Virus record (IMG/VR): IMGVR_UViG_3300035703_001342 | Coordinates: 1-31,074 of that record | Reading direction: 5' to 3' (one strand) | Length of the DNA: 31,074 nt | Source of the DNA: a virus | In this document: positions 12,013 to 30,558 of the stretch, in pieces | Position numbering within the stretch: the stretch's first letter is position 1 | How the letters are laid out: each line of letters begins with the position of its first letter | Made by a program: the position numbers and the translations under genes | The notes under the pieces: model-generated | Databases searched by the model: none | What the model was told of the DNA's origin: nothing | What the model saw: the letters and a program-made list of their open reading frames with translations, nothing else

Positions 12013-12019
12013 AACAAAA

Positions 12020-12945: not shown

Positions 12946-12947
12946 CC

Positions 12948-13466: not shown

Positions 13467-14122
13467 AAGCATTTATAATAACTATTTTTAGTAATAACAA
13501 TAGTGTTAATTATGCTAATAAATGTTTGGAATCTATAAAAGAAACCAATAGCAAGCTTGCCCCGGAGTTATTTTCAGCAGTTACTCCGGAAACGATGTTT
13601 GACGTTGTATGGCAATGGCCAGCAAGAAAAAAACAAACATGCAACAAAACCGGTCTTTTATTATCAGCTTATAAAAATGTAGATATAAACAAACGTATCT
13701 CTTGCGCACAGAGTCACTACTTGCTTTGGAAAAAATGTGTAGAATTAAATGAAACTATTTGTATATTAGAACACGACGCTGTTTTTATCAAAACATTTGA
13801 TTTAGAAGATTTTGACGGCGGAGCAATGTCTATTAATTCTCCTGCAAATGCTACATTTAATGATAAAATTTATGATTCACTATTGGAAAATAAAGAAAAC
13901 GAAGTTCCTTGGGTAACTGATCGAACTATTCCTCAAGGCCTTCCGGGTAACAGTGCATATGTAATAAAACCCTGGGCTGCTAAAAAAGCAATAGAATTAC
14001 AAGACAATATAGGATGGTGGCCAAATGATGCTATATTATGTAAACAGCTTTGCCCTTGGCTAACAGTATATAAACCATATTTTACTACATTACAAAATAT
14101 CAAATCAACTACAAGCAACTAA
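13463..14122 (+). CDS. GT25-family glycosyltransferase (second copy)
   Basis: A 219-aa protein starting at GTG 13463. This start makes a GTGA overlap and puts the beta-strand KAFIITIF at the N-terminus; an ATG at 13430 would add 11 non-conserved residues and a 37-bp overlap. Signature motifs are SCAQSHYLLWKKCV (from residue 80) and ICILEHDAVF (E103, D105), both GT25. Compared with the GT25 gene at 9891 it has a longer variable loop around residues 45-75 and a C-terminal GNSAYVIKPWAA segment. It likely adds a different residue of the same glycan (inference). Confidence 0.82.
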   Translation: MKAFIITIFSNNNSVNYANKCLESIKETNSKLAPELFSAVTPETMFDVVWQWPARKKQTCNKTGLLLSAYKNVDINKRISCAQSHYLLWKKCVELNETICILEHDAVFIKTFDLEDFDGGAMSINSPANATFNDKIYDSLLENKENEVPWVTDRTIPQGLPGNSAYVIKPWAAKKAIELQDNIGWWPNDAILCKQLCPWLTVYKPYFTTLQNIKSTTSN

Positions 14123-14129
14123 CGTCAAT

Positions 14130-14137
14130 AATAAATA
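14130..14137 (+). promoter_or_regulatory. T4-type late promoter motif inside the glycan cassette
   Basis: AATAAATA lies in the 20-bp gap after the second GT25 gene and ends 5 bp before the ATG at 14143. It suggests a separate late transcription unit for the downstream half of the cassette. No Shine-Dalgarno sequence is seen. Confidence 0.5.
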
Positions 14138-14142
14138 TTTTC

Positions 14143-14910
14143 ATGAATAAACGTATAGTACTTGTTACTGGAGGCTTTGACCCATTGCACAGTGGTCACA
14201 TTGCATATTTTAAAGCTGCAAAAAAACTAGGAAACAAACTGGTCGTTGGAGTAAATTCCGACAGCTGGCTAACTAGAAAAAAAGGCCGGCCTTTTATGCC
14301 TTGGGACGAACGTGCTGCTATTATTAGAGAACTGTCAGTAGTTGATGAAGTTATCGAATTCAACGACGATGACGGAAGTGCAAATTTTGCAATTTATAAA
14401 TGCCTACAAAAGTATCCGGAGCACAAACTGATATTTGCCAATGGAGGTGACCGTGTTCCGGATAATTGTCCTGAATACATTTATAAAAATACTCCTTGGG
14501 TTGAATTTGCATTTGGAGTAGGCGGCGAAGATAAGAAGAACTCAAGCAGTTGGATTTTGGAAGAATGGAAAAATCCAAAAACTACAAGAGATTGGGGATG
14601 GTACAGAGTACTTGATGATAAAACAGGATACAAAGTAAAAGAGCTTGTTATTGAACCAGGAAAAAGTTTATCGGATCAACGACACTTTTTAAGAGCTGAA
14701 CACTGGTATGTATTAAAAGGTTCATGCACTGTTAAAACAGAATATAACAACGTTACTCAAACAATAGAACTAAATGAATTAACATCTGGATATATAATTG
14801 GAAAAGAAGTGTGGCATAAAGTTACCAATAACACTGAAAACCTTTGTCATATTTTAGAAGTACAGTACGGCGAACAATGTGTGGAGAATGATATTGAACG
14901 AAGAAACTAA
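14143..14910 (+). CDS. Nucleotidyltransferase fused to mannose-6-P isomerase-type cupin
   Basis: A 255-aa two-domain protein. Residues 1-145 are a cytidylyltransferase-like domain: GGFDPLHSGH (HxGH at 16-19) and NSSSW (133-137), equivalent to the ISST-type motif of RfaE/TagD enzymes that make ADP-heptose or CDP-glycerol. Residues 151-250 are a type II phosphomannose isomerase cupin: WGWYRVL, then Q-x-H-x-x-R-x-E (Q179, H181, R184, E186), and H225. The expected reactions are NMP transfer to a sugar phosphate plus an isomerase or epimerase step; the substrate is not determined. The two domains are usually separate proteins or fused to other partners. It has its own late promoter motif and overlaps the next gene. 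Confidence 0.85.
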   Translation: MNKRIVLVTGGFDPLHSGHIAYFKAAKKLGNKLVVGVNSDSWLTRKKGRPFMPWDERAAIIRELSVVDEVIEFNDDDGSANFAIYKCLQKYPEHKLIFANGGDRVPDNCPEYIYKNTPWVEFAFGVGGEDKKNSSSWILEEWKNPKTTRDWGWYRVLDDKTGYKVKELVIEPGKSLSDQRHFLRAEHWYVLKGSCTVKTEYNNVTQTIELNELTSGYIIGKEVWHKVTNNTENLCHILEVQYGEQCVENDIERRN

Positions 14911-15700
14911 GCCACTAAGAATCTTTATTGGTTGGGACAGTAGAGAAGATATAGCATATCAAGTTGCTAGACAAAGCATTCTAGACCATGCAAGTGTTCC
15001 TGTTGAAATTGTTCCTTTAAAACAAAACCAACTTAGAAAAGACGAGCTGTACTGGAGAGACGTTGACAAGTTAGCTACAACAGAATTTACCTATACTAGA
15101 TATCTAATTCCTGAATTAACTGGATTTGAGGGATGGGCACTCTTTATAGATTGCGATTTCTTGTTTAAAGAAGATGTTGCCAAACTGTTTGAGCTGACAG
15201 ACGACAAGTATGCAATAATGTGTGCTCAACACGATTACAATCCTCCTGCCGGAATGAAGATGGATGGCAAAAAGCAAACACAATATCCTAGAAAAAATTG
15301 GTCTAGTATGATGCTAATCAATTGTGCTCATCCAAAAAATAAAATATTAACAAAAGAAGTAGTTAACGATCCTAACAAAACAGGTGCATACTTTCATAGA
15401 TTTTCTTGGTTAAAAGATGACGAGATTGGCGCGGTAAGTCACGAATGGAATTGGCTTGTAAATTGGTATACCGAACCACTGGATGGAAAGCCAAAAGCAA
15501 TACATTACACCGAAGGCGGTCCGTGGTTTGAAAAATATCAAGATTGCGAATATGCAACAGATTGGTATAAAGTTTCTAATAGATGTTATGCAAAGATTGT
15601 TGAAGAACAAGCAAAAGAAATAAAAATGTTTGACAAAAGACAGGTTGAAGTTGACGACTTAACATACCCTGATCAAAAAAAAAATTATTTAAACACATAA
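14888..15700 (+). CDS. GT-A type glycosyltransferase-like protein
   Basis: A 270-aa protein when started at ATG 14888. GTG at 14879 and TTG at 14894 are alternatives; a GTGGAG at 14881-14886 is spaced best for the TTG. The N-terminus LRIFIGWDSREDIAYQV is a GT-A opening, and ALFIDCDFLF carries the D-x-D (D88, D90). The C-terminal GPWFEKYQDCEYATDWY fits the end of GT8-like enzymes. It ends in an A10 run and TTTAAAC next to the stop; the frame just after it is open into the next gene (see frameshift site). Donor and acceptor unknown. Confidence 0.8.
   Translation: MILNEETKPLRIFIGWDSREDIAYQVARQSILDHASVPVEIVPLKQNQLRKDELYWRDVDKLATTEFTYTRYLIPELTGFEGWALFIDCDFLFKEDVAKLFELTDDKYAIMCAQHDYNPPAGMKMDGKKQTQYPRKNWSSMMLINCAHPKNKILTKEVVNDPNKTGAYFHRFSWLKDDEIGAVSHEWNWLVNWYTEPLDGKPKAIHYTEGGPWFEKYQDCEYATDWYKVSNRCYAKIVEEQAKEIKMFDKRQVEVDDLTYPDQKKNYLNT
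15675..15694 (+). other. Candidate -1 ribosomal frameshift site
   Basis: Two slippery heptamers lie in the glycosyltransferase reading frame: A AAA AAA within the A10 run (15675-15684) and T TTA AAC at 15688-15694, the classic heptamer. A -1 slip at either enters the frame of the next gene, which is open from 15673 with no stop to 16593. No clear downstream stem-loop was identified. A one-base undercall in A10 would give the same picture. Confidence 0.4.
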
Positions 15701-15777
15701 TACACTCTATAGTAGACCCTACAGAGAAATATTATCCTTCCTCAAAAGAAGAGGCACTAAAAATATGGAATGACGAA

Positions 15778-16593
15778 ATGGGAAATAAGATTGCGGCAAT
15801 TGACAGCGAGGGCGGCGTAAATTATAAATCAAAAGGGCATTCCTATGATCCATACCTTACCAGCTTTATTATAGGGTCGGGCGGATATATCAGCAACTGG
15901 TCCACTGAAGAAAACACCAATACTGCGCTGGTTATCCGCGGACTAGGCGGCGGCAGCAGAAAAGCTATAAAACATTGCTGGAAAACAGGAAGAACTTTCT
16001 ATGCGATCGACACTGGCTACCTAGGTAATGTAAAGACCAAGATATGGAATAGAGTTAGCAAAAACGCATTGCAAAATCTAGGACCAATCGTAGACAGACC
16101 CACAGACAGACTCAAGTTACTGAATTACAAATACAATCATTTTACTCCAGGAAGAAAGATATTGATCTGCCCACCTAGCGACAAAGTAATGGATCTTTGG
16201 GATCAGCCCTCGCCGCAAAAATGGACAGAAAATGTTATTGCAGAGCTGAAACAATACACAGATAGACCCATCGAAGTTAGACTTAAACCTGACAGATCCG
16301 ACCGTATCAATAATAATTCTATACAATCTGCACTAAGCAAAGATGTACATTGTTTAATTACTTTTAACAGTATAGCAGCCACTGAAGCACTGCTATTTGG
16401 AAAACCAGCAATTGCATTAGGGGAAAATGCTGCACAAGTATTGTGCAATAAAAAATTAAAAGATGTTGAAAATTTACGTATTCCTTCCAAAGACGAGATG
16501 CTGGCCTTTGCTGCTCATTTGAGTTATTGCCAATTTAATCAATCTGAATTTGCTAACGGAACAGCTTGGCGCATAGTAAATGAAAGTCGTTAG
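15778..16593 (+). CDS. GT-B-like glycan protein, paralogue 1 (KP in place of HP)
   Basis: A 271-aa protein from ATG 15778. Upstream, the same frame is open back to 15673 and reads like protein (SIVDPTEKYYPSSKEEA) but has no ATG, GTG or TTG, so the real N-terminus may come from a frameshift. The C-terminal half matches two neighbours: a strand KILICPPSDK, a helix before TDRPIEVRLKPD (K170-P171 where the others have His-Pro), TFNSIAATEALLFGKPAI (N197-S198), and a last segment ending NGTAWRIV. This resembles the C-domain of capsule-synthesis GT-B proteins. Loss of His-Pro may mean altered or lost donor binding. Confidence 0.65.
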   Translation: MGNKIAAIDSEGGVNYKSKGHSYDPYLTSFIIGSGGYISNWSTEENTNTALVIRGLGGGSRKAIKHCWKTGRTFYAIDTGYLGNVKTKIWNRVSKNALQNLGPIVDRPTDRLKLLNYKYNHFTPGRKILICPPSDKVMDLWDQPSPQKWTENVIAELKQYTDRPIEVRLKPDRSDRINNNSIQSALSKDVHCLITFNSIAATEALLFGKPAIALGENAAQVLCNKKLKDVENLRIPSKDEMLAFAAHLSYCQFNQSEFANGTAWRIVNESR

Positions 16594-17515
16594 TTATAGC
16601 AGTGTTGTTCCTTTAAAAAACAAGTCGCAAGAAAAATCTGACATTTTAATAAAATTTATAAAAGGTGTAAACGCAGCAGGCGACACTGGAATCTTTCATA
16701 CAGGCTACAACATTGTGGAATGTGATGTTGCAATGATACAAGGCTGGCAACATGAAAAAGGAAAATCTGCCCCTCATCTACAGCTAAGACAACAGATCAT
16801 TGATAGTCAAATAGACAAAAAAAGATTTGTATGCACTGCTGACAGTAATCTTTTTCTTTATGCAAACAAGTCAAATGAGCCACATCATTATTTAAGATAC
16901 AGCTTGAATGGAATCTTTCCTAATACAGGAAAATATTTCGACGATAACCCCGATCCTGCTAGATGGATGCAAATACAAAAAGACACTGGCATAACATTGC
17001 AACCACGTAAAACAACAGGAAAGAACATTGTGTTGTGTTGTCAACGAAACGGCGGCTGGAGTATGGGATCCAACGATGTAACCGGATGGGTTAGACACAC
17101 TGTCTCAATAATTAGAAAATATTCAGATAGACCAATTGTAGTAAGACCGCATCCTGGAGACAAAAATGCAGTAGAATATTTTAATCCAAAAACAACCAGT
17201 TTGCGATTTTTGCACAATGTAACTATTAGTAAATTTGATACACCGCTGGACCAAGATCTAAAGAATGCGTGGTGTGTGGTTAATCATAACAGCAGCAGCA
17301 TAGTTGGCCCTATAATTCAAGGGTATCCAGCATTTATCACAGATCCTATAAAAAGTCAATGTGCCGAAGTAGCACATCATTCTTTTGAGTCTATTGAAAG
17401 CCCAACTGAGTTTGATAGAACACAGTGGCTAGAACGAATTTCTATGTTTCATTGGAAGTTTAGTGAACTTGAGGATGGCACTGCATGGAAACACATAAGG
17501 CCTTATTGCCAGTAA
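16580..17515 (+). CDS. GT-B-like glycosyltransferase, paralogue 2
   Basis: A 311-aa protein, overlapping the previous gene by 14 bp. Its C-terminal half has KNIVLCCQRNGGWSMGS, DRPIVVRPHPGDK (H191-P192) and VVNHNSSSIVGPIIQGYPAF (S238-S240), then DRTQWLERISMF and EDGTAWKHI. The His-Pro and Ser-rich motifs recall CMP-sugar-dependent GT-B enzymes (bacterial sialyl- and Kdo-transferases) and capsule-synthesis proteins. With CMP-Kdo genes nearby, a Kdo or similar transferase is a reasonable guess; homology to those families is not proven. It runs 13 bp into the 3' end of a convergent gene. Confidence 0.65.
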   Translation: MKVVSYSSVVPLKNKSQEKSDILIKFIKGVNAAGDTGIFHTGYNIVECDVAMIQGWQHEKGKSAPHLQLRQQIIDSQIDKKRFVCTADSNLFLYANKSNEPHHYLRYSLNGIFPNTGKYFDDNPDPARWMQIQKDTGITLQPRKTTGKNIVLCCQRNGGWSMGSNDVTGWVRHTVSIIRKYSDRPIVVRPHPGDKNAVEYFNPKTTSLRFLHNVTISKFDTPLDQDLKNAWCVVNHNSSSIVGPIIQGYPAFITDPIKSQCAEVAHHSFESIESPTEFDRTQWLERISMFHWKFSELEDGTAWKHIRPYCQ

Positions 17516-18339
17516 CTGTTGTGATGCTGAACAACCACATCTGTTTTTTTAGATTTTCCTAGAGACTTACGGTCTCCTTTCATGTGATCCATCCATTTTC
17601 CTAATTTGCTGTTGATCAACGGATGCCCACCGCCGCCTGTCTTAGCGCCTGTTAGAGATAGTTCCGCAGTATAATCTCTAACGTTTGGATGTTTAATTTT
17701 CAATGAATTGAGTATTTTTCCAAACACAAATGAGTCGTGCCATTCATCCAGTTTGAAAATACCGTTTTCTGCTTCTTCGTACATACGCTCGAATTCATTT
17801 AAAAATTCTAAACAGGTTGCGTCTTTTAAATTCAAACCATAAAATCCACATTCAGGCCATGATTGCGATCCGCTGCCTCTCCCAACATAGGTAATCCAAC
17901 TGCTGCTTGGTAGAATTTCTAACCAATCGTTGTATTGCCAAGTGGTGTGAATAAAGCTGTCTGCATCCATCCATACAACCCAATCATCACCTTTTGTACA
18001 CGCATCGAACACAGCGTATACTTTATTTGCAAAACGCACAGCATCCCATTTAAATTCTTTATGAAAATCTTTTGGACGTTTTTCAGGGAATGGACATTTT
18101 CCGTTTGCTTTAGGCACTGACTTCCATTTTTCTTTAAACTTGGATAATTTGGGCAGCGATTCTCTAGCATCTAGAATAGTAATTTGTGTGGTATCTGGAT
18201 TATCTGGAACACAATCTTCTGCATATACAATCAACTTTATTTTTTTATCAACTTTTTCTGCAAATGAATTGATAAATCTTTGTCCATATAAATCCATTCC
18301 GGGCTTATGAAAGGTTGTAATCACAGATATGTTGGTCAT
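17503..18339 (-). CDS. GT-A type glycosyltransferase-like protein on the minus strand
   Basis: A 278-aa protein with N-terminal SVITTFHKPG, the opening beta-strand of GT-A folds, and VVWMDADSFI with D125 and D127 as the D-x-D. A C-terminal DEWHDSFVFGKIL and GGGGHPLINSKLGKWMDH follow. AAGGA lies 6 bp before the ATG. It is the only minus-strand gene in the 9-19 kb cassette, overlapping the end of the preceding plus gene by 13 bp and diverging from the next one. It therefore needs its own promoter, not clearly recognisable in the 36-bp gap (18340-18375). Confidence 0.78.
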   Translation of the reverse strand: MTNISVITTFHKPGMDLYGQRFINSFAEKVDKKIKLIVYAEDCVPDNPDTTQITILDARESLPKLSKFKEKWKSVPKANGKCPFPEKRPKDFHKEFKWDAVRFANKVYAVFDACTKGDDWVVWMDADSFIHTTWQYNDWLEILPSSSWITYVGRGSGSQSWPECGFYGLNLKDATCLEFLNEFERMYEEAENGIFKLDEWHDSFVFGKILNSLKIKHPNVRDYTAELSLTGAKTGGGGHPLINSKLGKWMDHMKGDRKSLGKSKKTDVVVQHHNSYWQ

Positions 18340-18351
18340 AATTTGTCCTTG

Positions 18352-18358
18352 TTAAATA
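18352..18358 (+). promoter_or_regulatory. Possible late promoter motif (weak)
   Basis: TTAAATA sits 17 bp before ATG 18376 in the short gap between divergent genes. It deviates from the TATAAATA/CTAAATA core by one base at the variable end. It could serve the plus-strand gene, which otherwise lies downstream of an opposing gene. Confidence 0.3.
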
Positions 18359-18375
18359 GCTATAGGTATTTACAA

Positions 18376-19233
18376 ATGAAATTTAAACTATGGAGAGAAT
18401 ACGGCGCATTAAACTCAAAGCCAGTCTTTGATGCATTTGCAGCCGGAGTTGAAAAATTAGGTTATAAAGTTGTTGAAAACAACACTGCTGACGTTGACGT
18501 AATTTGGAGTGTATTATTTCAAGGAAGAATGTTACCAAATAAAACAGTGTGGGATAATGCAAAAAAAGCAGGACGTCCTGTTATTGTGCTAGAAGTAGGC
18601 GGAATCAAAAGAGGAACAACGTGGAAAATTGGGCTAAACGGAATCAACAGGGGTTCTTATTATACTCCGTTGGATGCAGATGATAGTAGGGCAAAACAGT
18701 TAGGGTTAAGGTTATTGCCTTGGAGGACCACTGGAGAATACATCATCATTTGTGGACAGCACAATAAAAGTTTACAGTGGATTGATATGCCATCAATGAG
18801 CAAATGGATTATAGACACAATAAGTACCATTCAACAGTTTTCTAAACGTACTATAATAATTAGGCCGCATCCGCGATGTCCTTTACCGCATATAGAAAAT
18901 GAATTCAAAAATGTTTACAGTCAACAACCTATGCACATTAGCGGAACTTATGATGATTTTAATCTAAATTTTTCAAACACGTGGGCAACTGTAAGCTGGA
19001 ATTCAAATCCAGCTTCACAAAGTATAATTGCCGGAGTTCCAGCGTTTGTAGGAGAAACCAGTCTTGCAAGAGCAGTGGCTAACACAGATTTATCAAAAAT
19101 TGAAAATCCTGACATGCCCGACCGACAGCAATGGCTTAACGAACTTGCATACACAGAGTATACCTTGTCGGAAATAGAAACAGGAATACCCATAAAAAAC
19201 TTGACACATAGAATACAACATGTTAAGTTTTAA
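18376..19233 (+). CDS. GT-B-like glycosyltransferase, paralogue 3
   Basis: A 285-aa protein from ATG 18376; an in-frame ATG at 18307 would lie inside the start of the divergent gene and add residues with no match. The N-terminus MKFKLWREYGALNSKPVFDA begins a Rossmann-like half. The C-domain shares the paralogue pattern: EYIIICGQHNKSLQW, IIIRPHPRCP (H165-P166), TVSWNSNPASQSIIAGVPAF (S210), and the end DRQQWLNELAYTEYTLSEIE. These are equivalent to motifs in the genes at 15778 and 16580. Its role is likely transfer of an activated sugar; a CMP-sugar donor is possible, not shown. Confidence 0.68.
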   Translation: MKFKLWREYGALNSKPVFDAFAAGVEKLGYKVVENNTADVDVIWSVLFQGRMLPNKTVWDNAKKAGRPVIVLEVGGIKRGTTWKIGLNGINRGSYYTPLDADDSRAKQLGLRLLPWRTTGEYIIICGQHNKSLQWIDMPSMSKWIIDTISTIQQFSKRTIIIRPHPRCPLPHIENEFKNVYSQQPMHISGTYDDFNLNFSNTWATVSWNSNPASQSIIAGVPAFVGETSLARAVANTDLSKIENPDMPDRQQWLNELAYTEYTLSEIETGIPIKNLTHRIQHVKF

Positions 19234-19240: not shown

Positions 19241-20408
19241 AGATACTGTAGAAGATATCCTAAGTTTAGTAGTATCCTTTAGCGATGCAGTCCTTCCTAT
19301 GGACAAAGGGATTCTATCAAGCATTGACCGACAACTCAAACGCGGTGTTGCGTTGACTGATCGTCAGCACGAGTTGGTTAAAACAAAACTGCTGTTTTAT
19401 AAAGATTTTTTAATTTCTGTTGGAGTAACAGATCTACAAGAAAAATTAGATACCTTGAAGTTTCCTTTGAGAACTGTTGATCGCTCAAAGTCTATTGTTT
19501 TTAACGATAACTTAGTTGAGATTAAATTTCCGTTTAATAAAAAAATAATTGTGACATTAAACGAAGTAGTTCAGAAATGCAAAAGATTCTACAATCACGA
19601 AATTGGGTCTAATGTTCACAAATTTAAAATTAACGAGTTAACAGTTAAAGAAATAGTAACAGCATTCAAGGACAAAAACTTTTATATAGACACTGCTGTA
19701 TCAGAGCTATACAAAAAAATCAATGAGATCGAAATGGACAGGCAGTCGATTCTACCTGGCATTTACAACAACAAGCTGATGAACTTTAAAAAATCTGCAT
19801 TGGACTTGATGGATCTAGAGCTAGGTCCTCTTACCAGCGAAAACTTGATTAAATTTTATGATCGTCGTCGACGGTATGGCATTGCTGACATTGAAGGTAC
19901 TGTTTATAAAAATACATTGGTTGAAACCATTGCATATCGAGATGCAGCCGAATTGGCAGTTACCCCCGAAATGCATTCTCTAGATTCTGTTGTTGATGCA
20001 GTAATTCAACTTGAAAGATTTCCTATTCTAGTGTTGGTTGATCCTGAAAACACGTTGGAAGACGTTGCTAAAGTTTACAATGCATTCAGAGACGTAGTTC
20101 CCAACCAAAGTCAAACAGTGTTGTTTAGAGTCGACACTTCCACCAGTTACAATTTGAACAATTTCGTTCATGACAATAAAATAAATAATTGGCTTGACAC
20201 ATCAACAAAAATTGTTTATATTAATAAAAATAAGCTGCCAAAACTGCTGCTTCGCAGTGACTGGCGACCTATGGCAACGCTGGCATTATCCAGCTATCGT
20301 GCCAATTCCCACGTTACTACTTACATCAAAGACGTGTGTGACCTTATCATCTATCATGATAAGAGTATGAGTATTATTGGTAATAAAAGAAAGTATGTCA
20401 ACTACTAA
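19236..20408 (+). CDS. Conserved phage protein upstream of uvsW, function unknown
   Basis: A 390-aa protein. The N-terminus has ALTDRQHELVKTKLLFYKD, a phrase I recall from marine T4-like phage proteins beside uvsW. Residues about 85-165 (IVFNDNLVEIKFPFNKKIIV to KFKINELTVKEIVTAF) resemble the fold-like region that precedes SNF2-type helicase cores (HARP-like), a weak resemblance only. The second half is alpha/beta with VDAVIQLERFPILVLVDPEN and a closing VCDLIIYHDKSM strand. It lacks Walker motifs. It overlaps uvsW by 14 bp, so a partner role in fork reversal or repair is plausible (inference). Confidence 0.7.
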   Translation: MLDTVEDILSLVVSFSDAVLPMDKGILSSIDRQLKRGVALTDRQHELVKTKLLFYKDFLISVGVTDLQEKLDTLKFPLRTVDRSKSIVFNDNLVEIKFPFNKKIIVTLNEVVQKCKRFYNHEIGSNVHKFKINELTVKEIVTAFKDKNFYIDTAVSELYKKINEIEMDRQSILPGIYNNKLMNFKKSALDLMDLELGPLTSENLIKFYDRRRRYGIADIEGTVYKNTLVETIAYRDAAELAVTPEMHSLDSVVDAVIQLERFPILVLVDPENTLEDVAKVYNAFRDVVPNQSQTVLFRVDTSTSYNLNNFVHDNKINNWLDTSTKIVYINKNKLPKLLLRSDWRPMATLALSSYRANSHVTTYIKDVCDLIIYHDKSMSIIGNKRKYVNY

Positions 20409-21855
20409 ATTAATAATTGAAGATGAAGTAAACATAAAGTTCGAAGGTTTAGATGTAGATGTAAGAAGAAAACTTGCAAATGCACTGAAATTTGATGTTC
20501 CATACGCTAGACATATGCCGCATTACCAGCTCGGACGTTGGGATGGTAAGGTTGGTTTTTTTGGTATCGGTGGATCAGGTTACGTAAACCACCTAGATGT
20601 AATACAAAAAATCTTATCGGAAAACAAGGTCGAGATCGTCAAAATAGACGACCGTAGACAAGTTGTTGAACTGAATTTTGAAAAAATTGACGAAGACTAC
20701 TGGGGCGATAAAACATGGCCTAAAGGTCATCGTGACGAAGGACAGCCGATACGTCTTCGTGATTATCAATTGTCAGTCATAAACAATTTCTTATCAAACC
20801 CACAGGCGTTGCAAGAAGTAGCAACCGGTGCTGGTAAAACCATCATTACAGCCACACTATCTAAGATAGTTGAGCCGTTTGGAAGAAGTTTGGTCATTGT
20901 TCCAAACAAATCACTTGTTACACAAACCGAAGACGACTACCGTAACTGCGGGCTAGATGTCGGTGTGTATTTTGGTGACAGAAAAGAATTAGGTAAAACG
21001 CACACTATTTGTACATGGCAGAGTCTTAATATACTTGAAAAAAAATTCAAAGACGGTACCGGTATTTTAAGTCTAGCAGAATTTTTAGATGGTGTATCCA
21101 CAGTAATCGTTGACGAAGTGCATCAAGCAAAAGCTGAAGTTCTTAAAAATATACTCACAAGAAACCTACGCAATGCTCCTATACGGTGGGGTCTTACAGG
21201 AACTATACCAAAAGAAGACTTTGAATTTCAAAGTATATTAGCAAGTCTTGGTCCAGTTATTGGAAACGTTACTGCAAAAGAACTACAAGACAAAGGTGTG
21301 TTATCCAACTGTCATGTTAATGTATGTCAATTGATTGACCTACAGGTGTTTAGAGATTATCAATCAGAACTCAAATATCTAGTAACTGACAAAGAAAGAA
21401 TAGAATATATTGCAAATTTGCTGAATAAAGTTGCAAAATCTGGAAATACCCTTATACTTGTAGATAGAATATCAGCAGGAGAAAAATTAAAAGAGTTAAT
21501 ACCCGATTCAACATTTATCAGTGGTGCAGTAAAAGTTAAAGATAGAAAAGAAGTCTACGACGAAATCAACGAAGCTACAAACATGACCATTATTGCAACA
21601 TATGGTGTTGCAGCAGTTGGCATTAACGTTCCACGCATTTTTAACTTGGTATTGTTTGAACCGGGCAAAAGTTTTGTCCGTGTTATACAATCTATTGGCC
21701 GCGGTGTTAGAAAAGCAAAAGACAAAGACTTTGTACAGGTATGGGATATAACCAGTACATGTAAGTATGCGAAAAAACATTTAACGGAACGTAAAAAGTT
21801 TTATAAAGATGCACAATATCCGTTTACAATAGAAAAAATAGACTGGAAAAAATAA
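20395..21855 (+). CDS. uvsW: UvsW DNA/RNA-DNA helicase
   Basis: Superfamily 2 helicase that unwinds R-loops and branched DNA and switches replication from origin- to recombination-dependent. An N-terminal UvsW substrate domain (about residues 1-105, with ARHMPHYQLGRWDGKVGFF) is followed by the DEAD-like core: motif I ATGAGKT (143-149), motif II DEVH (240-243), motif III LTGT, and the C-terminal RecA domain with SIGRGVRK. The ATG at 20395 is preferred over an in-frame TTG at 20377 because it gives the standard N-terminus. At 486 aa it is close to T4 UvsW (503). Confidence 0.95.
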   Translation: MSTTKLIIEDEVNIKFEGLDVDVRRKLANALKFDVPYARHMPHYQLGRWDGKVGFFGIGGSGYVNHLDVIQKILSENKVEIVKIDDRRQVVELNFEKIDEDYWGDKTWPKGHRDEGQPIRLRDYQLSVINNFLSNPQALQEVATGAGKTIITATLSKIVEPFGRSLVIVPNKSLVTQTEDDYRNCGLDVGVYFGDRKELGKTHTICTWQSLNILEKKFKDGTGILSLAEFLDGVSTVIVDEVHQAKAEVLKNILTRNLRNAPIRWGLTGTIPKEDFEFQSILASLGPVIGNVTAKELQDKGVLSNCHVNVCQLIDLQVFRDYQSELKYLVTDKERIEYIANLLNKVAKSGNTLILVDRISAGEKLKELIPDSTFISGAVKVKDRKEVYDEINEATNMTIIATYGVAAVGINVPRIFNLVLFEPGKSFVRVIQSIGRGVRKAKDKDFVQVWDITSTCKYAKKHLTERKKFYKDAQYPFTIEKIDWKK

Positions 21856-23402: not shown

Positions 23403-23631
23403 TTTAATTCCGGGCGAAACGTTAATTTACGAACGTGTTGACAAAAAAATCTATGCAAGATATGCTAATAGACCAGACATACCCAGGTGGTGTATTAACG
23501 GCACTGAGGACACAGAGATTGGATATCATGACTTTAAAAAAATGTTGGAGTTATCTGATAAAAATCCAGTATTTAAAAAAGAACTAGACAAATTATTAAA
23601 TTTGTATTATATTATGAAGGACACTATATGA
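23383..23631 (+). CDS. Small conserved protein, TTG start
   Basis: An 82-aa protein; no ATG or GTG fits, so TTG 23383 is the best start, with a 20-bp overlap of the cupin gene. The core reads IPGETLIYERVDKKIYARYA, then RPDIPRWCING and a helical end with DKLLNLYYIMKD. I recall similar short proteins in marine T4-like phages; function unknown. Its stop overlaps the kdsA start (ATGA), so it is coupled to that gene. Confidence 0.65.
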   Translation: MDQELASLIPGETLIYERVDKKIYARYANRPDIPRWCINGTEDTEIGYHDFKKMLELSDKNPVFKKELDKLLNLYYIMKDTI

Positions 23632-24416
23632 AAATTATTGCAGGCCCGTGCCAACACGAGACGTACGAGCAATCATTAGAAATTGCAACAGAATGTAAAC
23701 GTGTATGTGATATGTTTGGGTTTGAATACATCTTCAAAGCCAGCTATGACAAAGCAAATCGAACACACATTAGTGGTCAACGTGGGCGAGGGATGGCTAA
23801 CACTCTTGAAGAGTTCAAGCAGATTAAAGAGCAGATTGATGGGTTGAAGATCTTGACAGATGTTCACTCTGAAAAAGAAGTGCTGACCATTGCAGATTGG
23901 TGGAGTAGAGTTGTTGATGTTATTCAGATTCCAGCATTCCTTTGCCGCCAGACTGACATCATTCAAGCTGCTTGCGATCAAGGGTTTATTGTTAATATCA
24001 AGAAGGGTCAGTTCCTTGCACCGTGGGACGTAGAAGGCATTTTATCTAAGACTGAGGGTGCAAAAGAAGTTTGGATTACAGAGAGAGGAACGAGCTTTGG
24101 TTATAATAATTTGGTTGTTGACTTTACTGGTATTGATTGGATGCTTAGAAATTATCGTGTACCGATCGTATTCGACGCCACCCATAGTGTTCAAAAACCT
24201 GGTGGGAACGGCACGAGTAGTGGTGGTAATAGGGATTATGTTCCTGCTCTATGTCGCGCAGCTAGCGCTCTTGGCGTATCTAATTTCTTTATAGAAGTTC
24301 ACGCAGATCCAGATAATGCTCCGTCAGATGGACCTAACATGGTACGTCTAGAAGACTTTGAAAAATTAATAAAGGAAATACATGACTACCGCTATATTGA
24401 TACCAGCAAGAATTAA
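23628..24416 (+). CDS. kdsA: 3-deoxy-D-manno-octulosonate 8-phosphate synthase (KdsA)
   Basis: Condenses phosphoenolpyruvate with arabinose 5-phosphate to give Kdo-8-phosphate. Class signatures: IIAGPC with C8, FKASYDKANRT (37-47), LTDVHSEKE, IPAFLCRQTDI (101-111), NIKKGQFLAPW (123-133), ERGTSFGYNN, DATHSVQKPGG with H186, FIEVHADP with E223, and SDGPNM with D234. C8, H186, E223 and D234 match the Cys/His/Glu/Asp set of metal-dependent (class II, Aquifex-type) enzymes; E. coli KdsA has Asn at the Cys position. Length 262 aa is close to cellular KdsA. Next to KdsB, it suggests CMP-Kdo production. The host must supply arabinose 5-phosphate; no isomerase or phosphatase is seen here. Confidence 0.96.
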   Translation: MKIIAGPCQHETYEQSLEIATECKRVCDMFGFEYIFKASYDKANRTHISGQRGRGMANTLEEFKQIKEQIDGLKILTDVHSEKEVLTIADWWSRVVDVIQIPAFLCRQTDIIQAACDQGFIVNIKKGQFLAPWDVEGILSKTEGAKEVWITERGTSFGYNNLVVDFTGIDWMLRNYRVPIVFDATHSVQKPGGNGTSSGGNRDYVPALCRAASALGVSNFFIEVHADPDNAPSDGPNMVRLEDFEKLIKEIHDYRYIDTSKN

Positions 24417-25059
24417 CAGCTCTCGATTTCCTCGCAAAATGCTTGCAGAACTCAATGGGGTTCCGTTGGTGCAACATGTGTTCCAACAATGTTGGAACTT
24501 TGGCTACGAAACTTACGTGCTAACAGACAGTCAAGAAATTGCAGATATACTGCCATCTAAGCGTGTAATAATGACTTGTCCTGATCACGAAAATGGAACC
24601 AGCCGATGCATGGAAGTTATTGACGAAGTGTTGCAATATGATAGATATATTAATGTGCAAGGTGACATGCCAGATGTCACTGCAGAAATGTTGATAAAAA
24701 TTGACACAGAACTAAAATCTTTCTCTGATGTTGCAACTGCATATTCGACCATGAATGCCGATGATCGTCAAAATCCCAATGTTGTTAAAATGATTCACAA
24801 CAGAGGCAGAGCGCATTGGTTTTTACGAGCACCACTGGAATATGGAGATAGACATTTAGGAATTTACGGTTATAATAGAATTGCCAAGTCCTATTACAGT
24901 GTTAGTAAAAAGTTTGCAGAAGAAAACTTCGAACAGCTTGAACAACTTCGTTGGATACAAAATGGTATTAAGATCGGCGTAGTCGAAGTTGATTTCAACG
25001 GTATTGAAATCAACACGCCAGAAGATTTAAAAGAATGGCACAAAAGAAATGGCAAATAA
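24382..25059 (+). CDS. kdsB: CMP-Kdo synthetase (KdsB)
   Basis: Couples CTP to Kdo to form CMP-Kdo. Seen: IPARINSSRFPRKML (nucleotide-binding loop), a CPDHENGTSR segment (family motif GTxR), NVQGDMP with D95, FLRAPLEYG, HLGIYGYNR and LEQLRWIQNGIKIG, all in family order. The C-terminal TPEDL motif reads IEINTPEDL, with Asn at 211 where family members usually have Asp, and QGDEP is QGDMP. The first site is intact, so activity is plausible but the second metal ligand may be changed. AAAGGA lies 6 bp before the ATG. It overlaps kdsA by 35 bp. Confidence 0.93.
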   Translation: MTTAILIPARINSSRFPRKMLAELNGVPLVQHVFQQCWNFGYETYVLTDSQEIADILPSKRVIMTCPDHENGTSRCMEVIDEVLQYDRYINVQGDMPDVTAEMLIKIDTELKSFSDVATAYSTMNADDRQNPNVVKMIHNRGRAHWFLRAPLEYGDRHLGIYGYNRIAKSYYSVSKKFAEENFEQLEQLRWIQNGIKIGVVEVDFNGIEINTPEDLKEWHKRNGK

Positions 25060-25516
25060 ACATATTGATCTTTTTAAAGAAATGATTCCAGCAATTGATC
25101 TAGGATTTAAAGATCTTTGGGATGCTGCTGGGGACGAAGGGCAAAAAGAAATCAAAAATGATTTATGGAACCTCAACAGATATATCAGCAGTGTAAAAGG
25201 ATCACGTGATTCTCAAGAACTTGCTGTATTCAAAACCAATGAATACTATAATAAAAATTGGGCAGTGCTTGGTGCAAAACATCCTAAACTACAATGGCAA
25301 CTGTTGTGTGTTGCTGGTAATACAGGAAAAAAAGAATTTCATCCGTGGTTAGGATTAAAACAGGCCAAAGGTGTTAACACCAAAGCTGTTAAATTTTTAG
25401 AAGAAATATACCCAACTAAAAAAATAGATGAGATTGAATTAATTGCTAGAATATTTACAAAAGCACAACTCGAAGAACTTGCCAGGGACCATGGATACGA
25501 AAAAGTCAATTTTTAA
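25049..25516 (+). CDS. Possible clamp-loader small subunit (gp62-like)
   Basis: A 155-aa helical protein. The order of an early LWNLNRYISSVK, HPKLQWQLLC, EFHPWLGLKQ and a C-terminal KAQLEELARDHG resembles marine phage gp62-type clamp-loader subunits, but similarity to T4 gp62 is faint and the identification is low confidence. If right, it would partner a gp44 homologue to load the sliding clamp; gp44/gp45 are not in this window. It overlaps KdsB by 11 bp and the following zinc-finger gene by 26 bp. Confidence 0.5.
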   Translation: MANKHIDLFKEMIPAIDLGFKDLWDAAGDEGQKEIKNDLWNLNRYISSVKGSRDSQELAVFKTNEYYNKNWAVLGAKHPKLQWQLLCVAGNTGKKEFHPWLGLKQAKGVNTKAVKFLEEIYPTKKIDEIELIARIFTKAQLEELARDHGYEKVNF

Positions 25517-26192
25517 TAAACCATATATATGTGAATACTGCGAAACTGGATATGCCAAAGAAAAAACTCTTATGGTTCATATGTGTGAACAAAAGAGAAG
25601 ACATTTGCAAAAAGGTGAAAAAAGAGTTCAGCTGGGCTACCAAGCTTTTGTAAAATTTTATCAAAAATCTGCAGGTCAAAAAAATATCAAAACCTATGAA
25701 GAATTTTGCAAAAGTAGTTTTTACAATGCCTTTGTAAAGTTTGGATCATTCTTGAACAATGTAAGACCATTATACACCGAAAAGTATATGGACTATATAG
25801 TGACCAGCGGAATTAAAATAGATCATTGGTGCAACGAAACAATTTATGAAAAATATGCTATTGAGTTAATAATGAAAGAAGATGTTGAGACAGCCCTAGA
25901 AAGATCTGTTAGTACAATGGCTGAATGGGCTGCAACACATGAATCGCAATGGAATCATTACTTTTTTTATGTTTCTCTAAATAAAGCTACATTTGATATC
26001 AAGGATGGAAAAATATCTCCGTGGTTGATTTTAAATTGTAAATCAGGAAAAGAAATGTTGGCCAAACTCAACGACGAACAGTTAAATATGATATATCAAA
26101 TATTAAATCCAGAACACTGGGCGTTGAGATTTAAACGTCATCCTAAGGATGTTGAGCTTGTAAAACAAATTGCTAAAGAAGGTAATCTATAA
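25491..26192 (+). CDS. Conserved phage protein with N-terminal C2H2-like zinc finger
   Basis: A 233-aa protein from ATG 25491 (an in-frame ATG at 25443 would lie deep in the upstream gene). Residues about 11-27 hold YICEYCETGYAKEKTLMVH, a C-x2-C ... H finger, with a further C and H downstream. The rest is helical: FYNAFVKFGSFLNNVRPLY, SGIKIDHWCNE, WNHYFFYVSLNKA and ILNPEHWALRFKRHP. I recall close relatives as conserved proteins of unknown function in T4-like cyanophages. Probably nucleic-acid binding. Its stop is directly followed in the same frame by the TTG of the DnaE-like gene. Confidence 0.78.
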   Translation: MDTKKSIFNKPYICEYCETGYAKEKTLMVHMCEQKRRHLQKGEKRVQLGYQAFVKFYQKSAGQKNIKTYEEFCKSSFYNAFVKFGSFLNNVRPLYTEKYMDYIVTSGIKIDHWCNETIYEKYAIELIMKEDVETALERSVSTMAEWAATHESQWNHYFFYVSLNKATFDIKDGKISPWLILNCKSGKEMLAKLNDEQLNMIYQILNPEHWALRFKRHPKDVELVKQIAKEGNL

Positions 26193-26747
26193 TTGGATAT
26201 CGACATAGACTTTGCAGATAGAGATATTATTCTATCTAAAATTACGCATCATGTTGCCAAACTAGACACTGGCAAAAAGCATAATACCGGAGTATATGTT
26301 AATCCTATTCCGCACAACCCACTAACCAATATATCAACAATAGATTACAAAGATGCTGAAGACCGTGGATATTTTAAGATTGATTTTCTAAATGTTTTTT
26401 TGTATAAAAACATAAAAAACGAACAGCACTTAATTGAGCTTTCTAACAAAGAACCACTGTGGGAACTATTGGAACATGCTGAAGTTGTGGATCAACTGTT
26501 TCACATTGCTGGACACAGCGACATTTTAAAGAAATTAAAACCCAAAAGTGTTTTGGAACTAGCTTGTGCATTGGCTATTATACGTCCTGCCAAAAGATAT
26601 TTGTTAACAGAATCGTGGGACAAGATACACCGAGAGGTATGGACCAAACCTACAAATAATCAATACTACTTTAAAAAAGCCCATGCGGTATCATATGCAT
26701 TGGCTGTGGTAGTTCATTTAAATTTACTTTGTGAAAGTTTTACTTGA
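26193..26747 (+). CDS. DnaE-like (C-family DNA polymerase) palm fragment protein
   Basis: A 184-aa protein starting at TTG, immediately after a stop in the same frame; AAGG lies 10 bp upstream. It lines up in order with bacterial DNA polymerase III alpha: MDIDIDFADRD with PDFDVDF (D4, D6 for E. coli D401, D403), KKHNTGVYV with GKHAGGVVI, FKIDFLNV (D64) with VKFDFLGL (D555), LKPKSVLELACALAIIRPA with the QPxxFEDxxALxALxRPG segment, and FKKAHAVSYAL with FNKSHSAAYAL. All three catalytic carboxylates are kept, but PHP, most fingers and the clamp-binding parts are absent. Function unknown: reduced polymerase-like enzyme, regulatory decoy or repurposed binding domain. Confidence 0.8.
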   Translation: MDIDIDFADRDIILSKITHHVAKLDTGKKHNTGVYVNPIPHNPLTNISTIDYKDAEDRGYFKIDFLNVFLYKNIKNEQHLIELSNKEPLWELLEHAEVVDQLFHIAGHSDILKKLKPKSVLELACALAIIRPAKRYLLTESWDKIHREVWTKPTNNQYYFKKAHAVSYALAVVVHLNLLCESFT

Positions 26748-27108
26748 TTTTTCTAATCAACTGAACGCTTCTGCGTTTTACTCTTTTTAGTGCTAGATTG
26801 TTTAAATTAACACAGGGCCCTACTACTATCTTTACATCTTTAGAATTCATTGTCATCATACAATAACGCAGCGGATCTATCTCTCTTCTTAGAAAAGTGT
26901 TTATGGGAATCAGTCTATTTGATTCCCACCACCATACTTCGCCTAAGTCCAGCAAAAGTTTTTTGTGATCATCGGTTTTTAAATTTGTATAAACAAACAT
27001 AGTTGTAACATACTGATCTTGATTTGAAATGATCCCGACATATTCGTTGCCACCATATGCAACTACACTTACGTAAGGAAATTGATGTTCTATCTCTTTT
27101 AATAACAT
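26740..27108 (-). CDS. Conserved phage protein on the minus strand, function unknown
   Basis: A 122-aa protein from ATG 27108 (a TTG at 27147 would extend it across the opposing promoter region). The sequence FPYVSVVAYGGNEYVGIISN, then LLDLGEVWWWESNRLIPIN and a basic C-terminus (LKRVKRRSVQLIRKI) matches a small conserved protein I recall in T4-like cyanophages. The GEVWWWE motif and the Arg-rich end suggest nucleic-acid binding, but no family is known to me. Its 3' end overlaps the DnaE-like gene by 8 bp. Confidence 0.75.
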   Translation of the reverse strand: MLLKEIEHQFPYVSVVAYGGNEYVGIISNQDQYVTTMFVYTNLKTDDHKKLLLDLGEVWWWESNRLIPINTFLRREIDPLRYCMMTMNSKDVKIVVGPCVNLNNLALKRVKRRSVQLIRKIK

Positions 27109-27113
27109 TCTAC

Positions 27114-27121
27114 AATAAATA
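27114..27121 (+). promoter_or_regulatory. T4-type late promoter motif
   Basis: AATAAATA lies 20 bp upstream of the ATG at 27142, which has AAGGA 6 bp before it. This is the best-formed late unit in the window. TATAAT at 27125-27130 overlaps the leader and could be an independent -10 hexamer without an evident -35. Confidence 0.65.
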
Positions 27122-27141
27122 CTATATAATAAGGATTCAGT

Positions 27142-27933
27142 ATGCAACTAACCCCTAGATATTTAGTCAACGAGAGAATAAATGTTGTATCAAATGATGC
27201 TGGATTCTTTGTGGAGTATAGACCTGTGTATAGTAGAACTTTAAATGTATATAGAAATATTGATAATACGCTACAGTTTAGATTATTGAATGCAGATCAA
27301 AAACCTGTACAAATAACCGGTACTCCTTATATCGTGATATTTGACGAAAATCAAACTAAAATTTTAGAACGTCAATGCGTTACAACCGACGACGGTTCAA
27401 CTACAGCAACTAGAGGTATGTTTCATGTTACTATAACAGAAACAGACATGCTCAATGTAAAACAACAATACTTACAGTATAACATCTACATGCTAAATGC
27501 AAACAACACTCGTTCTATAACATATGCAGGAAGAAATTTTTCCAGCAGCGGAAAAATATTTTTAGACGCTGGTGCATATCCTGGACCAAAAAGCAGTATA
27601 GAAATCAAAAACTTTTTTTCTGAAGGGCTGTATTGGGTTGCTGGATCCGACACAGAAAGCAAGATATCTGCGGAACCTGAACTTAATGGAGCCGACGCTT
27701 TGCACACTGTTGCAGTTTATAATAATGGATACGTTGGCAATGTTGAAGTTCAAGCAACTCTAGACAATCAAATTTCTATGACCAACAATTGGGCAACTGT
27801 AAACACTATTACTCTAACTGGCACTGAGACAGAACCTGTTCCTGCTAACTTTAATGGATTGTTTACATTTATAAGATTTAAATTTAACAATGATCCTACC
27901 AACACAATTACACAAATCTTACTTAGAAACTAA
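27142..27933 (+). CDS. Virion structural protein (beta-rich, tail/baseplate type)
   Basis: A 263-aa protein without enzyme motifs, beta-rich and Asn/Thr-rich, as in phage tail, baseplate or fibre proteins. Residues about 25-80 (VEYRPVYSRTLNVYRNIDNT, RLLNADQKPVQITGT) resemble the N-terminal domain of marine phage virion proteins and are reminiscent of BppU-type domains. The remainder is repeated beta strands ending FTFIRFKFNND. A late promoter and Shine-Dalgarno support late high-level expression. The precise virion location cannot be read. Confidence 0.75.
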   Translation: MQLTPRYLVNERINVVSNDAGFFVEYRPVYSRTLNVYRNIDNTLQFRLLNADQKPVQITGTPYIVIFDENQTKILERQCVTTDDGSTTATRGMFHVTITETDMLNVKQQYLQYNIYMLNANNTRSITYAGRNFSSSGKIFLDAGAYPGPKSSIEIKNFFSEGLYWVAGSDTESKISAEPELNGADALHTVAVYNNGYVGNVEVQATLDNQISMTNNWATVNTITLTGTETEPVPANFNGLFTFIRFKFNNDPTNTITQILLRN

Positions 27934-27968: not shown

Positions 27969-28961
27969 ATGAGCATCGTGTCAGAAACAGTATTCTCTTT
28001 CTTGCCGTCTAAGCGTAAAACTACGCCTAGTGGGTGGATATCATTCAATGCTCCTTGCTGCGTACACAATGGTACATCCCCAGACAACAGAATGCGCGGT
28101 GGTGTTATTGAAGAAGGCGAGTCGGTATCCTATCACTGCTTTAACTGTGGATTTAAAGCTTCGTGGCAACCAGGTCGACACATGTCCTATAAACTGCGAC
28201 AGTTGTTTACTTGGTTGGGTGTGCCCGACAACGACATCAATAAACTGGCTTTAGAGATACTGAAGATCAACGAAGGCATTGTTGTTAAAGAACGTGTAGT
28301 AGAACTTCCGAAGTTTCAAGAGGTAGCATTGCCGCCAAATGCTCAGTTGATAACTGATGATCTTTGCAATACATCTTCCCATCTATCTGCTGTAAAAAAA
28401 TACATGTCAGATAGACAGCTTTGGACAGATCAGGGATACAATTACTATTGGTCTAATTCACTTGGCTATAGAGATCGTGTTATTATTCCTTATCTGTATG
28501 ACGGAAAAATTGTTGGGTGGACTGCAAGAACTATTACACCCAATCGTCAACCCAAGTACATAGAAGAATCTCAACCAGGGTATGTTTTTAATCTTGACGA
28601 ACAGAGGCCACAAAAAATATTTGCAATACTTACTGAAGGGCCAGTTGATGCAATACATTTAGATGGTATCTCGCCCATGGGTTCTGAAATCAGCGAACAG
28701 CAGGTTATGTTGATCAATAGATTGAACAAGGATATTATTGTATTGCCCGATCGTGATCAAAAAGGTCAAGCTCTAGTGGAGTTTGCAATTGAAAACGGAT
28801 GGGGCGTTTCTATGCCTGACTGGAATCAAAATATCAAAGATGCTAGTGACGCAGTTGTTAAATACGGAAGATTGTACACACTGTACAGCGTTGTTTCGGC
28901 TGCCGAAACATCACCTTTAAAAATTAGATTGAGAGCAAAAAAATGGTACGCACATTTATAA
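27969..28961 (+). CDS. gp61: DNA primase (T4 gp61-like)
   Basis: Makes RNA primers for lagging-strand synthesis together with the gp41 helicase. The N-terminal zinc-binding domain uses C30/C31, H33, C57 and C60 (APCCVHNG and YHCFNCGF). The TOPRIM catalytic domain shows ILTEGPVDAIH (E223, D227) and VLPDRDQKG (D261, D263), in correct order and spacing. The 330-aa length matches T4 gp61 (342). A start at GTG 27978 is possible if the promoter with TATAAT is used. gp41 lies 1.7 kb downstream, separated by carbamoyltransferase and small genes. Confidence 0.95.
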   Translation: MSIVSETVFSFLPSKRKTTPSGWISFNAPCCVHNGTSPDNRMRGGVIEEGESVSYHCFNCGFKASWQPGRHMSYKLRQLFTWLGVPDNDINKLALEILKINEGIVVKERVVELPKFQEVALPPNAQLITDDLCNTSSHLSAVKKYMSDRQLWTDQGYNYYWSNSLGYRDRVIIPYLYDGKIVGWTARTITPNRQPKYIEESQPGYVFNLDEQRPQKIFAILTEGPVDAIHLDGISPMGSEISEQQVMLINRLNKDIIVLPDRDQKGQALVEFAIENGWGVSMPDWNQNIKDASDAVVKYGRLYTLYSVVSAAETSPLKIRLRAKKWYAHL

Positions 28962-29059
28962 AATTTTTAACTTGGCCATATCGATATATTCGCGATGAGT
29001 TGGCTTTTAGAAAGAAACTCAAAGAACTGAGGAAGCGCGATCCTTTTATCTACAAATGA
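28943..29059 (+). CDS. 38-aa conserved micro-protein
   Basis: ATG 28943 to TGA 29059, lying between primase and the carbamoyltransferase. It overlaps the primase end by 19 bp and shares ATGA with the next gene. The protein opens with an aromatic amphipathic stretch (FIKFLTWPYRYIRDE) and ends in a basic helix with KKLKELRKRDPFIYK. I recall the RDPFIYK ending in small cyanophage proteins, supporting a real gene. Function unknown; could be a small membrane-associated or RNA-binding peptide. Confidence 0.68.
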   Translation: MVRTFIKFLTWPYRYIRDELAFRKKLKELRKRDPFIYK

Positions 29060-30558
29060 TAACTTGGGGAATCAGTGCGAACAGTCACGATGCTGCGTTG
29101 GCTGTTTTTAGCAAAGACAATAACAAACTAAAACTTGAGTTTGCTAGTCACAGCGAGCGATTCAGTGGAATAAAAAATGATCCACACTTGCACAAAAGCA
29201 ATTCTATTTTTAAAGACGGACTAATTGAATATGCCGTCGATAATTTCGGTGCGCCGCAAGAAGTTGTATGGTATGAAAAACCATACAAAAAAACTTTTCG
29301 GCAACTGTTAGCAGGGCAAGGGTGGCTTGGCAAAGAAAATAATATTTGTAATTATTTGCTTGACTACGGTATTGACGCTCCTATATCTTATGTGGACCAT
29401 CATCTCAGTCATGCTAGTGCAGGCTATTATACAAGTGGGTTTGATTCTGCTACTGTTGTTGTGATTGATTCTATTGGTGAATTTGAAACCCTGAGTATTT
29501 GGTCAGGCGAAGGCAGAAATCTAAAACGAGTCTATTCACAACGCTATCCACACAGCCTCGGATTGTGGTACAGTGCCATGACTGATCGTATTGGTTTAAA
29601 AGCCAACGAGGACGAGTATATTTTAATGGGTATGGCCGCATACGGAAACCCTCATAGATTGTATTGGGACATACTAGCTGATTTCTTTGAAAACTTTGGC
29701 AACGAATCAACTCCAGGTCCAAAATTTAAAAATAATCTACATAGGGGATGCCGTAACTGGAGACCGGACCTTGTATCCGAACAGGATCGTTTTGACATAG
29801 CAGCCGCAACCCAGTACGTATATGAAGTAATTCTTAAACAGATTTCTTACTGGGCTCTACGCAACTTACCATCTCGCAATTTAGTGTTGATGGGCGGTTG
29901 TGCATTAAATTGCTCGGCTAACAGTGTTATACACGGAGATTGGGACCAGGTGTGGATCATGCCCAACCCAGGTGATGCTGGATCTAGTGTGGGTGCAGTG
30001 TTGGCCAAATATCAACAACCAATCAACTGGCCGGGCCCGTACTTGGGATTTGATATCCTCATGCCCTATCCAGTAGAACAGTTGATTGCTGAACTCAAAG
30101 CCACCGGCATTGCAGGAGTTGCCAACGGCCCAGCAGAGTTCGGCCCTAGGGCATTGGGAAATCGCAGTTTGCTTGCTGACCCTCGCGGCGAAGATATCAA
30201 GTTCCGGGTCAATGCTATCAAACAACGTCAACAGTTTAGACCATTTGCCCCTGCTATACTTGCAGAACATGCTGAACAGTATTTTGATGGACCAATGGGT
30301 CCGTACATGCAATACACTGCAAGATGCAGATACCCTGAACAGTTTCCAGCAATTGTACACAAGGATGGTACCAGCAGAGTGCAAACTGTGTCGCAAAACG
30401 ACAACCCAGGTCTAAGACGGTTGTTGGAACGCTGGTATGCAGAGACTGGGTGTCCTATGCTGTTGAACACCAGCCTCAATATCAAAGGCCGCCCAATGGT
30501 TAATACCTGGGGTGATGGGCTGGACTTTGCCAAACACTACGGAGTTAAAGTGTTTTAA
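29056..30558 (+). CDS. NodU/CmcH-family O-carbamoyltransferase
   Basis: Transfers a carbamoyl group from carbamoyl phosphate via carbamoyl-adenylate to a hydroxyl on a sugar. The N-terminal Kae1-like domain has WGISANSHDAALAV and YVDHHLSHASAGYY (HHLSHA at 115-120), with the family's key His residues, and DEYILMGMAAYG. The C-terminal YrdC-like domain has NGPAEFGPRALGNRSLLADP and LLNTSLNIKGRPMV. At 500 aa it is shorter than most cellular members (550-610 aa), lacking some C-terminal sequence. Carbamoyltransferases occur in several marine T4-like phages. Here it likely modifies the same glycan as the cassette. Confidence 0.93.
   Translation: MITWGISANSHDAALAVFSKDNNKLKLEFASHSERFSGIKNDPHLHKSNSIFKDGLIEYAVDNFGAPQEVVWYEKPYKKTFRQLLAGQGWLGKENNICNYLLDYGIDAPISYVDHHLSHASAGYYTSGFDSATVVVIDSIGEFETLSIWSGEGRNLKRVYSQRYPHSLGLWYSAMTDRIGLKANEDEYILMGMAAYGNPHRLYWDILADFFENFGNESTPGPKFKNNLHRGCRNWRPDLVSEQDRFDIAAATQYVYEVILKQISYWALRNLPSRNLVLMGGCALNCSANSVIHGDWDQVWIMPNPGDAGSSVGAVLAKYQQPINWPGPYLGFDILMPYPVEQLIAELKATGIAGVANGPAEFGPRALGNRSLLADPRGEDIKFRVNAIKQRQQFRPFAPAILAEHAEQYFDGPMGPYMQYTARCRYPEQFPAIVHKDGTSRVQTVSQNDNPGLRRLLERWYAETGCPMLLNTSLNIKGRPMVNTWGDGLDFAKHYGVKVF

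Follow-up and report, generated by a model that had tools for sequence, protein, structure and literature searches.

The question raised by this locus is why a phage that carries T4-type replication genes should also encode a small piece of the bacterial replicase, DNA polymerase III alpha (Pol III alpha; DnaE/PolC, C-family). The window, i.e., the whole stretch of DNA analyzed, is a 31-kb (31,074-nucleotide) fragment of a phage genome and makes up the total sequence in its record. The first-pass annotation had read one of its ORFs as a stand-alone DnaE-like palm fragment and had considered a C-family core unexpected in such a phage. The second judgement is only partly right, as a split minimal Pol III alpha has been described in jumbo phages (Iyer et al., 2021, Viruses; PMC7824862), and "stand-alone" does not hold: the ORF encodes one half of a two-gene enzyme, the C-terminal unit (C-unit) of that same split enzyme (PMC7824862), and a partner bearing the GS motif ends where the C-unit begins. 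New here are the abundance of the enzyme in uncultured phages, the residue-exact complementarity and near-identical phyletic pattern of its halves, and the synteny of one half with gp44 and of the other with the UvsW-gp61 block; the catalytic residues are also corrected, and the thumb is recognized as lost. A literature search that lacked most subscription journals turned up no experimental work on the split enzyme, and the passages retrieved from other phage polymerase papers do not mention it.

The C-unit, a reduced Pol III alpha palm

The C-unit gene is genuine, and its 184 codons begin with a TTG (26193-26195) that is abutted, in the same frame, by the TAA stop (26190-26192) of the upstream gene. 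A GAAGG lies approximately 10 bases 5' of the TTG, and from this arrangement of sequence the C-unit is likely to be translationally coupled to the upstream gene. As ATG replaces TTG in two relatives (TAA-ATG in L032 and L063) and most others open with MPDIDIDF, the start is well supported.

PHROG 11778, annotated as "DNA polymerase", covers the C-unit over its full length (residues 1-182, E 2e-63). In Pfam only a sub-threshold DNA_pol3_finger match was obtained, and a PF07733 search of the C-unit or the window alone gave no match. Similarly, the single C-unit sequence retrieved only chance matches from the PDB; a family profile was required, and the one built from 128 C-unit homologues retrieved DNA polymerase III alpha chains only, with the segments in order. 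A profile-profile comparison with Pol III alpha gave a probability of 98%. All five Pol III alpha segments noticed in the first-pass annotation are present. The AlphaFold2 model of the C-unit (mean pLDDT 94.4) agrees with the DnaE-type palm fold that had been suspected: the top 15 Foldseek matches are all C-family polymerases, and a structural aligner placed residues 1-184 on the palm and fingers of Thermus Pol III alpha (462-837; Z 10.2, 3.3 Å, 182 residues aligned) and of E. coli alpha (401-780; Z 8.8).

The metal ligands of E. coli Pol III alpha are D401, D403 and D555. Their counterparts in the C-unit are D2, D4 and D64, and D6, which corresponds to D405, is likewise invariant. In a set of 177 sequences, the most divergent approximately 40% identical to the window protein, every member is identical at D2, D4, D6, H30, G33, K62, D64, R131, P132, K134 and H164, and the proximal fingers residues R131, P132, K134, F160, K161 and H164 are invariant or nearly so. 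The earlier claim that all three polymerase carboxylates are kept and conserved in homologues is therefore borne out, but the residues concerned are D2, D4 and D64 rather than D4, D6 and D64. Sequence conservation and the model agree on a Pol-beta-like palm with three carboxylates, and the C-unit shares with bacterial Pol III alpha the palm strands, the positions of D401/D403/D555 and K553, the KHxxG, RP and FxKxH motifs, and the fold. Truncated tblastn matches in named phages, which start from residue 28-30, might be taken for loss of the DxD; this was rejected, as extension of the frame recovers it.

What separates the C-unit from its bacterial relative is the extent of reduction (184 vs. 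1160 aa). Between D6 and K28 there are approximately 20 residues, whereas E. coli has approximately 100 there (407-509), housing the thumb; between P132 and F160 there are 27, compared with about 115 fingers residues in E. coli (641-755). The C-unit lacks the PHP domain, the thumb, most of the fingers including their middle part, the HhH/clamp-binding part, the OB fold and the CTD, in line with the absences listed in the first-pass annotation (PHP, most fingers and clamp-binding parts). The GS motif is absent as well: the C-unit starts at the strand bearing the first two aspartates, so the motif, which in Pol III alpha precedes that strand by approximately 40 residues, falls outside the chain, upstream of its opening.

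A separate gene for the N-terminal half

A GS motif was sought in the genes around the window ORF, and none was found. When nine jumbo phage records with a C-unit were scanned with PF07733, each yielded one convincing match, in a separate gene of approximately 170-200 aa located far from the C-unit gene. In all nine, the PF07733 match of this N-terminal unit (N-unit; PHROG 11127) spans profile positions 13-98, the first third of the domain. The N-units carry RGSS or a close variant and end in EF[LF][KRN]. Among 151 distinct N-units drawn from IMG/VR and named phages, 131 terminate exactly 32 residues, and 10 more 33 residues, from where RGS starts, and in nearly all 151 the terminus falls just ahead of PDIDIDF, the opening of the C-unit. 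For one N-unit (L156; model pLDDT 91), residues 85-179 superimpose on E. coli alpha 279-395 (Z 11.6), and the two models thus tile Pol III alpha, from 279 to 395 (N-unit) and from 401 to 780 (C-unit), with a five-residue gap (396-400). The N-terminal part of the N-units, approximately 80 residues long (L156:9770-10306, residues 1-80, closing with the invariant W81 and Y87), lies outside the Pol III alpha matches.

The two halves occur together. Among 50,697 phage records the C-unit was found in 63 and the N-unit in 60, and 59 of the 60 C-unit records among the matches listed also carry the N-unit, the exception being a 109-kb record. IMG/VR contigs longer than 250 kb gave the same picture: six of seven picked by the N-unit have the C-unit, the sole counter-example being a 359-kb contig (G037) with an N-unit and no detectable C-unit, and the three that were tested after being picked by the C-unit (G060, G061, G070) all carry its partner. 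One 328-kb contig (G042) holds the N-unit, gp44, gp43 and the C-unit together.

Both protein families of the split enzyme (PHROG 11778 and PHROG 11127) are known from the group 2.2 jumbo phages RaK2, 121Q, GAP32, PA5oct and Atu_ph07, the former being shared with the window, and there too an N-terminal NTP-binding protein and a C-terminal Mg/DNA-binding protein are encoded by distant genes (PMC7824862). Unlike these phages, the window belongs to an uncultured clade, whose best named relatives are approximately 53% identical, and it has no N-unit on its own 31-kb contig. Nor was an N-unit found on close-relative contigs, which are incomplete and reach 167 kb; one of them, G001, runs collinear with the window but is clearly truncated. 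The gp44 region, the expected site of the N-unit, was not found on window-clade contigs in a search that had no positive control. We infer that the window clade keeps the N-unit. Phage type and IMG sample numbers suggest that many of the relatives are marine.

Replication genes around both halves

The C-unit gene lies in a phage replication neighborhood, as the first-pass annotation had recognized. The block runs UvsW, PHROG 11279, PHROG 11758, the zinc-finger PHROG 11058, the C-unit, the convergent PHROG 11637, a structural gene, the gp61 primase and the gp41 helicase, and it is common to the window and to Agrobacterium, Pseudomonas, Klebsiella and Vibrio jumbo phages (Table 1). The N-unit gene has a different neighbor: of the 113 N-unit loci spanning 12 kb or more, 107 have it next to the gp44 clamp-loader gene.

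Table 1. Features of the C-unit locus in the window, and unsplit DnaE-like genes on related contigs
Feature	Position	Strand	Syntenic at eligible loci
UvsW-like helicase, upstream end of block	20377..21855	+	
Conserved PHROG 11758 protein	25049..25516	+	149/158
C2H2 zinc-finger-like protein (PHROG 11058), upstream neighbor; possible ATG at 25491	25443..26192	+	163/169
GAAGG ribosome-binding-like sequence, upstream TAA and in-frame TTG	26178..26195	+	
C-unit of split minimal Pol III alpha (PHROG 11778); catalytic D2, D4, D64 and proximal fingers	26193..26747	+	
Convergent gene, PHROG 11637; 3' end overlaps end of C-unit gene	26740..27147	-	166/168
Virion-structural-like gene (PHROG 14467)	27142..27933	+	156/158
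T4 gp61-like DNA primase	27969..28961	+	129/136
Unsplit DnaE-like gene	L061:10755-12383		
Unsplit DnaE-like gene	L083:544-2187	-	
Unsplit DnaE-like gene	L051:7518-9143		
Unsplit DnaE-like gene	L078:13554-15197		
Unsplit DnaE-like gene	L106:7974-9698		
Unsplit DnaE-like gene, at contig ends	L038, L053, L009, L062, L065		

The first-pass annotation had set the C-family core against the B-family polymerase of T4-like phages, and related complete phages do possess one. A B-family polymerase is present in all 10 named records (including the huge phage LR756508, which is without a C-unit) and in 17 of the 23 contigs examined. In the group 2.2 jumbo phages the C-unit is accompanied by a B-family enzyme, and its synteny is that of the window. 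On window-clade contigs, which are fragments and on which the clamp-loader gene was likewise not found, no B-family polymerase (gp43) was found.

Two neighbors of the C-unit deserve mention on their own account. The fixed tail-to-tail layout of the C-unit and PHROG 11637 may matter for regulation, and the C2H2 zinc-finger-like PHROG 11058 protein is a candidate DNA-binding partner that could compensate for the lost thumb. In addition, the translations suggest a sugar-synthesis island within the replication block of the window (9136-19233, 23628-25059 and 29056-30558), comprising a long series of glycosyltransferase-, methyltransferase- and nucleotidyltransferase-like genes that separates UvsX/UvsY from UvsW, together with KdsA-, KdsB- and carbamoyltransferase-like genes. 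The latter three flank the block in the window clade and distinguish it from the group 2.2 jumbo phages, as does the additional unsplit DnaE-like gene of some of its members.

Proposed role and competing readings

We consider it probable that the C-unit contributes the C-terminal half, with the metal site, to a split minimal C-family (Pol III alpha-type) nucleotidyltransferase, partnered by the N-unit and putatively acting as a short-patch enzyme. In Pol III alpha, the GS motif binds the triphosphate of the incoming nucleotide. In the split enzyme, the GRGSS turn that receives this triphosphate would be supplied by the N-unit, and the C-unit would contribute the D2/D4 strand, the K62/D64 strand and a reduced set of fingers helices (R131, K134, K161, H164), the two chains joining non-covalently as one palm. 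Judging from this anatomy, the nucleotidyltransferase site would be complete only with both chains and in neither alone. The complex may then extend a primer terminus by nucleotide addition through two-metal catalysis, tethered by phage replisome proteins.

That the catalytic residues never vary points to catalysis. The loss of the thumb, PHP and clamp-binding part, together with the B-family replicase already present, argues against a processive replicase. A short-patch role is proposed in view of the missing PHP, thumb, clamp-binding part and most of the fingers; the enzyme would work alongside the phage B-family replicase, the best fit being primer extension or the filling of gaps next to gp43. 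Whether polymerization is template-directed is uncertain, as the thumb region and most of the fingers are missing. A more specific proposal is that this two-subunit thumbless C-family enzyme of a T4-type replisome extends gp61 RNA primers and delivers them to gp43, the B-family enzyme, as a phage counterpart of the hand-off made by Pol alpha or DnaE3; we regard it as speculative and rather doubtful.

If the halves do form an active enzyme, it would rank as an unusually small core for a C-family polymerase and offer a natural test of what a Pol III palm is capable of once thumb and PHP are gone, and in many T4-related giant phages two unrelated polymerase families would work in a single replisome. 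Because the chains part exactly between the GS motif and the metal-binding strand, the question can be addressed directly with a mixture of two small proteins.

The main rival is that the N- and C-units together transfer nucleotides to a different acceptor with no templated DNA synthesis, for example as a terminal transferase, in primer tagging or in the modification of another substrate. Such an activity would suit a protein in which the template-primer grip of Pol III alpha (thumb and most fingers) is gone and the catalytic residues are invariant, and the approximately 80 extra N-terminal residues of the N-unit could be read in the same way. However, R131, P132, K134, F160, K161 and H164 are invariant or nearly so, and the genes for both units lie among replisome genes; we therefore judge this reading unlikely, though it keeps an appreciable share of the probability.

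The first-pass annotation had also offered a host decoy or regulator, which is possible but unsupported. A dead protein of this kind, directed at the replisome or the host polymerase and retaining the fold merely as a binding surface, would accord with the small size and the missing domains. It would need neither catalytic residues nor a partner, yet D2, D4, D64 and K62 are kept in 177/177 sequences at identities down to about 40%, and the GS-bearing partner is kept in the same genomes, which makes a decoy improbable.

Decay from a full-length DnaE, or derivation from the unsplit PHP-less DnaE-like ORF present on ten window-clade contigs, is scarcely credible given hundreds of intact homologues with fixed start, length and synteny, and the side-by-side presence of the C-unit and the unsplit gene, which belong to different PHROGs.

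The unsplit gene lies mostly 5-8 kb downstream of the C-unit and encodes approximately 540-557 aa where complete. Its product (about 548 aa) matches PF07733 at 6.7e-44, has full fingers and is PHROG 405-like, and LR756508 encodes a 575-aa relative. By its sequence, we take it to be a second minimal C-family polymerase. These proteins (L061, L083 and LR756508; 543-575 aa) are, like the C-unit, phage-borne C-family palms without PHP, but differ from it in being single chains with a GS motif, a thumb region and full fingers, and in not belonging to PHROG 11778. The 548-aa protein was also considered as the partner or source of the C-unit and was rejected in both roles, since it occurs together with an intact C-unit, bears a GS motif itself and comes from a different family.

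A split of a different kind is hinted at by PHROGs 7513, 13169 and 12219, whose profile lengths and match positions point to a PHP-bearing DnaE divided near the same place in other phages, with proteins of approximately 460 aa ending past the GS motif and an 823-aa family spanning the later part; we note this as a lead only.
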